From the NCBI GenBank assembly GCA_026129685.1, contig JAHCHO010000009.1:62001-126000 (forward strand): a stretch of DNA of 64,000 nt. The letters run 5' to 3'. Below are positions 47,466-50,788 of this stretch, one piece after another; position 1 is the first letter of the stretch, and each line of letters opens with the position of its first letter. Below the pieces are notes generated by a model. That model worked only from the letters and a program-made list of their open reading frames with translations. It did no database searches and was not told the origin of the DNA. Position numbers and translations under genes: made by a program. The DNA is from Fimbriimonadaceae bacterium (lineage in GTDB: Bacteria > Armatimonadota > Fimbriimonadia > Fimbriimonadales > Fimbriimonadaceae).

Positions 47466-47889
47466 ATTCAGCTCCCATAGGTTGCCGTCGAGTCGAGCCA
47501 TCCGTGGTTCCTGTTCCTTGAGCCCGCGTGGGGAACGCGGGCTCATTGGAGAGGACGGACCAGCCGCCCCGATGGGCGCGGACCGACGCGGGCAGGGTGC
47601 GAACGGGCGCGCGCGGGTCCACCCGCTTGAGCGGGGTCGGACGGCCGGCGCGGGCGTCGGCGCAGCCTCCCACGAGACTGACGGACACGCCGTTCTGCAC
47701 CAGCACCCGGCCCAGGCTGAACGCGGCGACCTCGACCGCGAGGACGAGGAGGAGCGACCGGCTCACGGGCAGGGGCCGATACCGGCGACGGTCGGCGGAC
47801 GGGTTCCCCCGCCGGACTTGCGCCCGGGGGGGATCGGGTTGTCGGCGCCCCGACGGAGGCGCCTGTTTCGGTTCGAGCAATCGGTTCAT
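47332..47889 (-). CDS. Small single-helix membrane protein (C-terminus uncertain)
   Basis: The start ATG 47889 overlaps the rsgA stop (TGATGCGATG arrangement), giving MNRLLEPKQAPPSG. A Pro/Arg-rich cytoplasmic segment is followed by one membrane helix (SLLLVLAVEVAAFSLGRVLV, near 45-64) and a short outer segment NGVSVSLVGGCADARAG. The open frame then runs another 100 codons, through a perfect hairpin and 134 bases into the next gene, where it reads as a shadow. The real protein may be shorter, with an indel hiding the stop. Unknown function; co-transcribed with rsgA. Confidence 0.4.
   Translation of the reverse strand: MNRLLEPKQAPPSGRRQPDPPRAQVRRGNPSADRRRYRPLPVSRSLLLVLAVEVAAFSLGRVLVQNGVSVSLVGGCADARAGRPTPLKRVDPRAPVRTLPASVRAHRGGWSVLSNEPAFPTRAQGTGTTDGSTRRQPMGAEYGSHHRRGRNGRLPAPTAAHAVRLLPHPARNPLAPVPLDAPPLA
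47520..47544. terminator. Perfect 10-bp hairpin
   Basis: GAGCCCGCGT pairs with ACGCGGGCTC around GGGGA. It lies between the small membrane protein and the 89-residue gene on the minus strand. No T tract. It may terminate or attenuate the rsgA operon. Confidence 0.5.
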
Positions 47890-49142
47890 CGCATCTCCGC
47901 AATCCGTTCCAGAGGGAACGGCGGGTTCGACAGGGCGCGAACGGCGAGCGACATCAAGAGCATCTCGTTGTCGTCGGCCGCCACGCGGTTGGACGAAAGC
48001 TGACCGCACGCCCGACAGCGGTGGATCAGGGCCCACTCGCCGCCGCGCCGCACCCAGACGGCGACCGGTTCCATCGCGCCCCCGCAGGCGGCGGCGCGAT
48101 CGCCCGGATTCGCGTCCAGGTGCTTGCTGTGCAGGCACTTCGGGCAGTGGTTTCGGTGTTCGGTTCCGCCGCCCGAGGCGGAAACCGGGGCGCCGCACTG
48201 CTCGCAGACGAAGTCTCTTCCTTCGTCTTCGAGCTCGACGCCCTTGACAAACTCGGCCATCAACTTCCGGTAGACCCGGTAGCGCGTTCGCGCGACGCGC
48301 CCTTCGCGAACGGCGGCGTGGACGCCGCAGTCCGGCTCGGACAGATGCCGGCAGTCGCGGTAGCGACACGGGTCGGCCAACCGGAACTCCGGGAAGGCGG
48401 CGCGCACGTCGTCGGCATCGGCGAAGTCCACGCGGAATTCGCGCACACCCGGGGTATCGACGACGCGGGTTCCGTTCGGAGCGACATACAGACGCGAACC
48501 GGTGGTGGTGTGCCGTCCGCGCTTCGAGTAGTCGGAGGTCTCGCCCGTCTTCGCGCCCGCCGTTTCGACGAGCGCGTTCAAAAGGGTGGACTTTCCGACG
48601 CCCGAATGCCCGACGAACGCCACCGTTCGGCCCTGCACAACGTGCGCCAGTTCCGGAAGACCCGATCCGCTTTCGGTCGAGGTCGCGACGACGGGAATCC
48701 CGAGGTCGCGGTACATCGCCAGTTCGCGCATCGCGTCGGCCAAGGTCGCGTCGTCGCCCAGATCGGTTTTGTTGAGGCAGATCACCGGTTCGACGCCGCC
48801 CTGCCAGAGGGCGGCGAGGTACCGATCGATCAGCCTCGGCCGAAAGGGCGGCGAGACCAACGAGACGACCACGCAGGCGGCGTCCAGGTTCGCGGCGATC
48901 GCGCGTCGGCCCGCGCGATCGGCGGGGCCGAGGCGAGCGAGTTCGGTCCGCCTCGGCAACCTTTCGACGACGCGGGCGTCGGAGGCGCCCAGGCGAACGC
49001 GAACAAGGTCGCCGGCGACCAGTTCGAGCTTCCCGAACGAAGCGCGGTGGATCGAGCCCGCCACCTCGACGTCGACGGTGGCTCCGGCGGAGAACACCAC
49101 GACGCCCTCGGCAGAGGACTCAGAACGAGACGACGGCCCCAC
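47886..49142 (-). CDS. rsgA: Ribosome small-subunit GTPase RsgA fused to a C-terminal RNHCP zinc domain
   Basis: 418 residues from GTG 49142. An upstream TTG at 49220 has AAGGA ten bases away and is an alternative start. The RsgA part has an OB fold (SFGKLELVAGDLVRVRLG), the circularly permuted G domain in order CLNKTDLGDD (G4), FVGHSGVGKSTLLNAL (G1), VDTPGVREF (G3) and the zinc knuckle CRYRDCRHLSEPDCGVH. RsgA normally ends soon after. Here about 120 more residues form an RNHCP domain: FVCEQCGAPVS, GTEHRNHCPKCLHSKHLDANPGDRAAACGGAMEPV with eight Cys/His, and IHRCRACGQLSSNR. RsgA matures 30S subunits; the added domain could bind rRNA (inference). Confidence 0.9.
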   Translation of the reverse strand: MGPSSRSESSAEGVVVFSAGATVDVEVAGSIHRASFGKLELVAGDLVRVRLGASDARVVERLPRRTELARLGPADRAGRRAIAANLDAACVVVSLVSPPFRPRLIDRYLAALWQGGVEPVICLNKTDLGDDATLADAMRELAMYRDLGIPVVATSTESGSGLPELAHVVQGRTVAFVGHSGVGKSTLLNALVETAGAKTGETSDYSKRGRHTTTGSRLYVAPNGTRVVDTPGVREFRVDFADADDVRAAFPEFRLADPCRYRDCRHLSEPDCGVHAAVREGRVARTRYRVYRKLMAEFVKGVELEDEGRDFVCEQCGAPVSASGGGTEHRNHCPKCLHSKHLDANPGDRAAACGGAMEPVAVWVRRGGEWALIHRCRACGQLSSNRVAADDNEMLLMSLAVRALSNPPFPLERIAEMR

Positions 49143-49582
49143 GGGGTGAGGCGAACGATGAACTCGGCGATTTGTCGGCCGCCGATGGCCGTCTTCTTCA
49201 TCGAGAAAACGTACGTCCAACGGGAATGATCCTTCAGGGTCTGCGGCGGAGGTCGCCGCGTCAAGGCCGATCGGGTCGGCGGGTTACGCTTCGAGAGCGT
49301 CCGACCCTGAAGGTTTCGCCCGAACGAGTCGGGTCAGGCGAAAAGGCCTTCGGAGCCGGTCGCGAGTTCGGTGGTGATTCCAAAATCGGACATTGCTTAT
49401 GCTCCTTGCTCCCCTACGTCGGGAAGCGAAGGCCATTGTATCACACCTCGCGCGTTTTGGGGAGAGGCACCGGAGGTATTCGGACCCAGCGGTGGGTACG
49501 AAGGCGGTGGCGACGGGTCGTTTGGCGCGCGACCGATCCACCGCGCGGTCTCGTTCGTTTGAACCTCGGAGGTCCTCCGGGA
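49143..49582. other. 440-base interval without a convincing gene (rsgA leader and serpin upstream region)
   Basis: No frame here has convincing coding character. The minus-strand half contains a cloverleaf-forming element (49231-49313). The plus-strand half, leading to the serpin ATG at 49583, ends with CGGAGG about 12 bases before the start. A C-run and AAAATCGG-type segments near 49380-49440 hold no clear promoter. Confidence 0.5.
49231..49313 (-). ncRNA. Candidate structured RNA / leader of rsgA: four-way-junction cloverleaf
   Basis: A perfect 11-bp closing stem (CCTTCAGGGTC 49231-49241 with GACCCTGAAGG 49303-49313) encloses three perfect hairpins, all with five-base loops: GCGGCG/CGCCGC (49243-49259), GCCGA/TCGGC (49266-49280) and ACGCT/AGCGT (49286-49300). 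Read on the minus strand, the 3' strand of the closing stem ends in AAGG, part of the AAGGA that could be the ribosome site for TTG 49220. The shape recalls a tRNA, but the stems lack most conserved tRNA bases and no CCA follows. Strand assignment is by position upstream of rsgA. Confidence 0.55.
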
Positions 49583-50788
49583 ATGTTCGTTCTGTGTATG
49601 AGCGGTGTCTTGTTGTCCGCGATGATCGGGGCGCCGCAGGGCGGCGGTGACGCGACGATGAACGCAGTGTTTCGGGATCGAGACGGTTCGCCGACGGCGG
49701 TCGCCCGGTCCGTGTTCTCCTTTGGCCACGCGATCCTGAAGAAGGTGGCGGCGAAGGAGGCGAACGTCTGCGTTTCGCCGATCAGTCTCTGGTTCCCGTT
49801 TTCGCTGGTCTATCAGGGCTCGAGCGGCGTTTCGCAACGCGATATGGCCGCTCTGCTCGTTCCGGCCGACCCCGGCCAGACCGTTCAGGGCGCCCGGGCG
49901 GCGATCGCCGTTTTGAACCGGCCGACACCCGGCTTCACGGTATCGCTCCAGAACGCGGCCTGGTTCCGGCCCGATTCGCCCCCCTCAAGGCAGTTCCAGT
50001 CCTTGGCCACGGGGCCGTTCGCCTCGCGCGTGTTCGCGGTGTCCGCCGAGAAGGCGCCGGAGGCCATCAACGCTTGGGTCAACGAGGCGACGCGGGGCAA
50101 GATTCCGTCCCTGCTCGATACGATCCATCCACAGGAGGGGATGGTTCTGGCCAATGCGGCCTATTTGAAGGCCGAATGGACCAAGCCCTTCCCGGCGTAC
50201 GCGACGACCCCGAGACCGTTTTTCGTGGACGGCGAACGCGAGGTCAAGGTGCCGACGATGAGCGGAACGTTTATCGCGCGTTACGTCGGACATCCCGACT
50301 TCTTGGTCGCGGCGATCCCCTACAAGGACGAGGCGGGTTGGCTGGTGCTCGCGATGCCCAAGGAAGGCCATGCGATGGGCGAGCTGTGGAAGGCCGATCT
50401 GGCGGCAATGCACCGCGCGGTGCTGCGCGCGACGCCGACCGAGTGCATCGTGACGATGCCGAAGTGGAAGACGGCCACGGACCTGGACCTCAAGAAGACG
50501 CTTTCCTCGATGGGAATGGTCGCGCCGTGGAGCCCTCGCGGCGAGTTCGCCGCCATTCATCGTCAAGCCTTTCTCAGTCGTGCGATCCACAAGGCTAGGA
50601 TCGAGGTGGACGAGAAGGGCACGGAGGCGGCGGCGGCGACGGCCATCGGGGTGGGTCTTGGCGGAGGGGCGTCAGACCGGAAGCTTCCCCCGATCTTGAC
50701 CTTCAACCGTCCGTTCTACTACGCGGTGGTGGAGCGGACGACGGGCTTGCCGCTGTTCGCGGGGGTTCTGAACGACCCGTCCAAGTAG
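49583..50788 (+). CDS. Serpin family serine protease inhibitor, secreted
   Basis: 401 residues from ATG 49583. An N-terminal hydrophobic segment suggests export. The fold is recognisable: ANVCVSPISLWFPFSLVYQGSSG, INAWVNEATRGKIPSLLD (helix F and strand 3A), LANAAYLKAEWTKPF, WLVLAMPKEG and the end LPPILTFNRPFYYAVVERTTGLPLFAGVLNDP. The hinge EKGTEAAAATA fits an inhibitory serpin with Thr at P14 and small residues at P12-P9. The reactive loop continues AIGVGLGGGASD; P1 is predicted to be Gly or Leu, suggesting elastase/subtilisin-like targets. Bacterial serpins usually protect from self- or foreign proteases. Confidence 0.9.
   Translation: MFVLCMSGVLLSAMIGAPQGGGDATMNAVFRDRDGSPTAVARSVFSFGHAILKKVAAKEANVCVSPISLWFPFSLVYQGSSGVSQRDMAALLVPADPGQTVQGARAAIAVLNRPTPGFTVSLQNAAWFRPDSPPSRQFQSLATGPFASRVFAVSAEKAPEAINAWVNEATRGKIPSLLDTIHPQEGMVLANAAYLKAEWTKPFPAYATTPRPFFVDGEREVKVPTMSGTFIARYVGHPDFLVAAIPYKDEAGWLVLAMPKEGHAMGELWKADLAAMHRAVLRATPTECIVTMPKWKTATDLDLKKTLSSMGMVAPWSPRGEFAAIHRQAFLSRAIHKARIEVDEKGTEAAAATAIGVGLGGGASDRKLPPILTFNRPFYYAVVERTTGLPLFAGVLNDPSK

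Follow-up and report, generated by a model that had tools for sequence, protein, structure and literature searches.

What a compact cloverleaf-forming element does directly in front of rsgA, the gene of a ribosome-assembly GTPase, is the question raised by this locus, which we analysed within a stretch of 64,000 nucleotides of a Fimbriimonadaceae genome (hereafter the window). The first-pass annotation had described an 11-bp stem and three hairpins with 5-nt loops in 83 bases; this was borne out, and the structure lies beyond what chance would give. An exact 11-nt inverted repeat has its arms at 49231-49241 (CCTTCAGGGTC) and 49303-49313 (GACCCTGAAGG), 61 nt apart, and on the minus strand the 83 bases from 49231 to 49313 fold into an 11-bp closing stem (49303-49313 with 49231-49241) around three hairpins, all with 5-nt loops and with stems of 5, 5 and 6 bp. 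The predicted energy of this fold is -44.7 kcal/mol (z = -5.25), and none of 200 shuffles was equally stable. The plus strand of the same segment also folds (z = -4.60), as is expected of inverted repeats.

The view that the element fits no recognised feature was upheld by the Rfam covariance models, which gave no match in 48900-49700 up to an E-value of 10. Besides, ARAGORN reported just a tRNA-Gln and a tRNA-Met in the window, both elsewhere and none at the cloverleaf. A mobile hairpin of the REP/MITE type found no support, the cloverleaf being single-copy, with no second copy and only short partial matches in the 3.94-Mb genome. Nor did an intrinsic terminator or transcription attenuator, as no terminator-like site (stem plus U-run criterion) was present on the minus strand in 49100-49640.

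The cloverleaf belongs to a leader of about 220 bases (49218-49443, minus strand), of which the first-pass annotation had missed the upstream ORF (uORF), the hairpin at the uORF stop and the promoter. In the direction of transcription, this leader consists of an extended -10 promoter element (TGATACAAT, 49435-49443), a strong Shine-Dalgarno sequence (SD; AAGGAGC, 49401-49407, -7.5 kcal/mol with the anti-SD), a uORF of 19 codons running from ATG to TGA (MSDFGITTELATGSEGLFA, 49334-49393), a folded spacer of 113 nt from the uORF stop to the rsgA start (49221-49333, z = -3.87), which holds the cloverleaf, and the TTG start codon of rsgA (49218-49220), all on the minus strand. A hairpin at 49314-49343 (minus strand), whose arms (49334-49343 and 49314-49323) are 90% complementary, covers the uORF stop codon, which is predicted to be paired at 0.97. 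At its other end, the cloverleaf abuts the ribosome site of rsgA as had been described, with the 3' end of the closing stem (GAAGG) running into the SD AAGGA (49230-49234, minus strand), followed by the TTG. In the predicted fold, four of the five SD bases (AAGG) are taken up by the closing stem, in its 3' arm, which supports the earlier suggestion that folding hides a ribosome site. The gene itself (47886-49220, minus strand) encodes an RsgA GTPase domain (PF03193, E 2.8e-51) fused to an RNHCP domain (PF12647, E 4.1e-38). A gene of the serpin family (PF00079; 49583-50788, plus strand) is divergent from rsgA, and the intergenic region is common to both.

We searched for RsgA in 85 genomes of the family, 113 of the order and 151 of the phylum, and then read the regions upstream of rsgA. 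This gave 44 evaluable leaders of the Fimbriimonadales, of which 42 belong to the family and the other two to a sister family within the order. All 44 share one layout, i.e., an ATG-initiated uORF of 14-23 codons, in most cases preceded by a strong SD, a spacer of 63-172 nt and then the rsgA start. Since each uORF had been chosen as the candidate with the best SD in a 290-nt search window, a choice for which only a strict filter controls, we put rsgA and a set of control genes through the same strict filter. It was passed by 34 of the 44 rsgA genes and by 4 of 333 control genes, a large contrast even though the latter are based on crude gene models; they were drawn from the window and from 20 stretches of 20 kb, so that the genome-wide frequency of such leaders is a sampled one. 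None of these four control genes is related to ribosome assembly according to Pfam, which names three of them (a DNA methylase/restriction protein, a transport permease and RNase HII). Outside the order, a similar filter was passed by 1 of 18 scored rsgA genes, and SD-led starts were common there. At the level of sequence, the rsgA leader has what marks a uORF leader, a short ORF that has its own ribosome site and is conserved in relatives.

The position of the rsgA start was aligned by homology of the RsgA N-terminus, and the codon found there is TTG in 31 leaders, ATG in 10 and GTG in 3. That only start codons occupy the aligned position argues that it would be the site of initiation rather than an internal codon, the spacer being neither skipped nor spliced. 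The SD energy at this start has a median of -2.9, close to the -1.5 at random positions inside the spacers, and it reaches -6 in only 3 of the 44 leaders versus 48% of the control genes, for which the best candidate start was taken. TTG makes up 70% of the rsgA starts and 26% of the control starts, the latter assigned by a rough rule. The rsgA gene of E. coli K-12 (L110, 4458-5510) likewise has a TTG start, preceded by an SD-like CAGGAG, so that weak start codons may be more widespread for this gene.

Across the 44 leaders, the SD of the uORF has a median energy of -9.5; in two of them (L011 and L012) it is unusually distant from the ATG. In nearly all close pairs of leaders the DNA of the uORF exceeds the spacer in conservation, and in most of them it also exceeds the initial 150 nt of rsgA. 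Its length and stop are usually kept in close pairs, and the encoded peptide differs among genera, with no conserved peptide or codon run. In 19 of the 44 leaders, an exact complement of at least 6 nt to the uORF SD lies inside the uORF, against 4.1 +/- 2.0 in 200 shuffles (maximum 11). The uORF of the window has a complement of 5 nt only, GCTCC in codons 13-14 (49352-49356, minus strand), which matches the GGAGC of its SD and has a low predicted use (0.13). Such self-complementarity may tune initiation on the uORF, and it may also explain part of the conservation of the uORF DNA. In two leaders (L010 and L013), the 3' portion of the uORF can pair at length with the spacer, in competition with the spacer's own hairpin.

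Matches to TGnTATAAT (7-8 out of 8) were found upstream of 16 of 43 leaders, where 0.6 were expected from shuffles. In 15 of these 16 strong cases the element lies 41-68 nt 5' of the uORF ATG, the distance in the window being 41 nt. A generic scan for sigma-70 sites with two hexamers gave no site at 49435-49443, and the promoter call is a comparative signal. Given the position of this extended -10 element, the mRNA probably has the uORF as its first reading frame.

In all 44 leaders, the spacers fold more stably than dinucleotide-shuffled versions of themselves (mean z -2.1, with 20 below -2). Their ends also pair with each other more than those of the shuffles do (10.7 versus 5.9; Wilcoxon p = 1.2e-7, where p-values over the 44 leaders, which are related by descent, overstate independence). 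On the other hand, the shortest path from the uORF stop to the rsgA start in the predicted folds does not really differ from that of the shuffles (mean 13.1 versus 14.3), and selection for bridging as such is therefore not supported. From genus to genus, the internal hairpins vary in their number, size and sequence, and the spacers are too divergent to be aligned for a cross-genus consensus structure. A search for compensatory changes, which had been proposed as a check on the cloverleaf, turned up some in alignments of subgroups, but they are few and many pairs are broken in some groups, so that covariation is thin. Considering the variation of the hairpins and the scarcity of compensatory changes, the exact cloverleaf is, as judged from the compared sequences, only the local form of a more general leader design. 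The first-pass annotation had also considered a tRNA- or rRNA-like mimic controlling rsgA, and a degenerate tRNA. With the negative ARAGORN and Rfam results, and with the cloverleaf shape not preserved in relatives, the mimicry finds no support, and neither does the degenerate tRNA; what stands of the proposed control element is that it looks like one acting on translation.

In the clade of the window, five genomes have an rsgA start with an SD (that of the window, two more from its genus and two from genus g7). These SDs differ in sequence and are predicted to be mostly paired (0.77-0.93 of bases), also in the four genomes other than the window, which gives the idea of a hidden ribosome site further support. 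For every simulated position of a ribosome on the uORF of the window, about 0.80 of the bases of the rsgA SD stay paired, and in this fold model a ribosome anywhere on the uORF up to its stop leaves the closing stem intact. Pairing of the SD drops to 0.41-0.63 in the model only with a ribosome at least 15 nt beyond the last codon. A predicted opening of the stem past the stop codon fits a ribosome that continues after termination better than a stalled one.

Based on these observations, we propose with moderate confidence that the region serves as a leader controlling the translation of rsgA across the Fimbriimonadales, where it is conserved, and that rsgA would be translated by coupling to the uORF. 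The support at the level of sequence consists of the order of the parts, their recurrence, the weak start, the excess of folding and the end-to-end pairing, and the recurring layout suggests that rsgA may be translated only through the uORF. Speaking against it are the stop-to-start paths, which resemble those of shuffles, the closing stem of the window that stays shut in the model for a ribosome anywhere on the uORF, the divergence of the peptide among genera, the distant uORF SD of L011 and L012 and the thin covariation. In the proposed scheme, the extended -10 promoter would give rise to an mRNA that starts with the uORF of 14-23 codons and its strong SD. Ribosomes would enter at the uORF, finish translating it close to the base of the stem and then reinitiate at rsgA after crossing the folded spacer or opening it. 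The rsgA start is a weak one, usually TTG, and either lacks an SD or, as in the window, has one that is predicted to be locked in the closing stem. The output of rsgA would then be set by translation of the uORF and by the efficiency with which terminating ribosomes reinitiate, a rate for which the supply of ribosomes, the quality of the 30S subunit and RsgA itself are candidate modulators. If rsgA is expressed only by way of the uORF and the folded spacer, an assembly factor would be directly controlled by the ribosomes on its own mRNA. A more specific version, which we put forward tentatively and consider rather doubtful, is a device resembling a ribosome shunt, in which ribosomes leaving the uORF would cross the spacer to an SD-less start, and the synthesis of RsgA would report on termination, recycling and reinitiation and so provide a feedback on 30S quality. 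The 44 natural variants of the leader also form a ready set for studying by what route bacterial ribosomes get to start codons without an SD.

The same parts could also work in the opposite direction, with the strong site of the uORF diverting ribosomes from the weak start of rsgA, so that RsgA would be made when initiation on the uORF drops, for example when mature, SD-using 30S subunits are scarce. Such a repressive uORF would agree with the concentration of SD strength on the uORF and its withholding from rsgA, with the self-complementary SD of 19 of the 44 uORFs as a way to tune initiation, and with the M. tuberculosis metE uORF, which represses its gene according to PMC11260477. However, a start without an SD and with an unfavourable codon would be poorly used by free 30S subunits anyway, making repression seem unnecessary, and the ordered closing stem beside the start is left unexplained; we therefore regard this reading as unlikely. 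The order of the parts is also that of a translation attenuator of the erm/cat type, with an SD, a leader ORF of similar length and a stem that hides a second ribosome site, in which a uORF ribosome stalled by a drug or by lack of an amino acid would switch the fold and free the rsgA start. The pairing of the uORF 3' part with the spacer in L010 and L013, an alternative to the spacer hairpin, would suit such a switch. A second SD hidden by a stem is predicted for the window and the four other genomes of its clade, most other members having no second SD. Yet the genera share no peptide or codon run, and no stalling position on the uORF of the window opens the closing stem in the fold model; attenuation by stalling thus appears improbable.

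RsgA is known to bind the 30S subunit close to its decoding centre, and a strong fold lies at the ribosome site of its mRNA, so that RsgA or a ribosomal protein could be imagined to bind the cloverleaf and block its own mRNA. A binding site would be expected to be conserved, whereas the internal hairpins are variable in all respects compared, which makes autoregulation of this kind very improbable. That the structure is a degenerate tRNA, a mobile hairpin or another decayed feature without a role would agree with its cloverleaf-like outline, but it hardly deserves credence against the negative ARAGORN and Rfam results, the single copy and the recurrence of position and layout in 44 genomes; the comparative result strongly disfavours it. 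The ordered succession of uORF, spacer and a second ORF without an SD would also be compatible with translational bypass or an intron, with RsgA taking its N terminus from the uORF while the spacer is skipped or removed. A skipped or spliced junction has no need of a start codon, but TTG, ATG or GTG stands there in 44 of 44 leaders, and no conserved take-off or splice sequence was seen; this exceedingly unlikely reading was set aside on account of the junction codon.

Translation of rsgA by coupling to the uORF, which we favour, would make the leader a variant of known uORF-controlled leaders. The translation attenuators of ermC and cat share with it a strong SD, a short leader ORF and, as predicted for the window, a stem over a second ribosome site. 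The rsgA leader differs from them in having no conserved peptide and mostly no second SD, and in preceding the gene of a ribosome-assembly GTPase; drug induction, a trait of ermC and cat, is only conjectural for it. In the ribosome shunt of plant pararetroviruses, a short ORF ends where a large stem begins, and ribosomes reinitiate on its far side at a weak start codon, much as proposed here for rsgA, but there the ribosomes are eukaryotic and scanning, while the shunt in the bacterial leader is putative. infC, like rsgA, is the gene of a factor acting on the 30S subunit with a weak start codon, and it is autoregulated through that codon; its start is AUU instead of TTG, ATG or GTG, and to our knowledge it does not have such a uORF-spacer layout.

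Among the papers compared, the closest experimentally studied case is, by analogy, ppe2 of M. tuberculosis, where a uORF and a structured leader control the downstream gene and where, according to PMC11260477, expression of PPE2 depends on translation of the uORF, primarily by termination-reinitiation. The two differ in gene and lineage, no B12 aptamer is known for the rsgA leader, and the latter, unlike ppe2, has a downstream start mostly without an SD and a spacer whose ends pair mutually. Since the ppe2 uORF is essential and the metE uORF is repressive in the same work, uORF control of either sign, activating or repressive, would be possible for rsgA as well. Among the papers searched on rsgA uORFs, rsgA autoregulation or its TTG start, none described regulation of this kind for rsgA, and no paper was found on leader peptides of the Fimbriimonadales.

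Matches to the RsgA GTPase above the Pfam cut-off were found in only 45 of the 85 genomes of the Fimbriimonadaceae and in 48 of the 113 of the order, and rsgA thus appears to have often been lost or replaced in these groups. The fusion of RsgA to RNHCP occurs in the genus of the window and in genus g7, whereas in many other genomes of the family RNHCP is a protein of its own. That the two are fused hints that RNHCP may have a role related to the ribosome.
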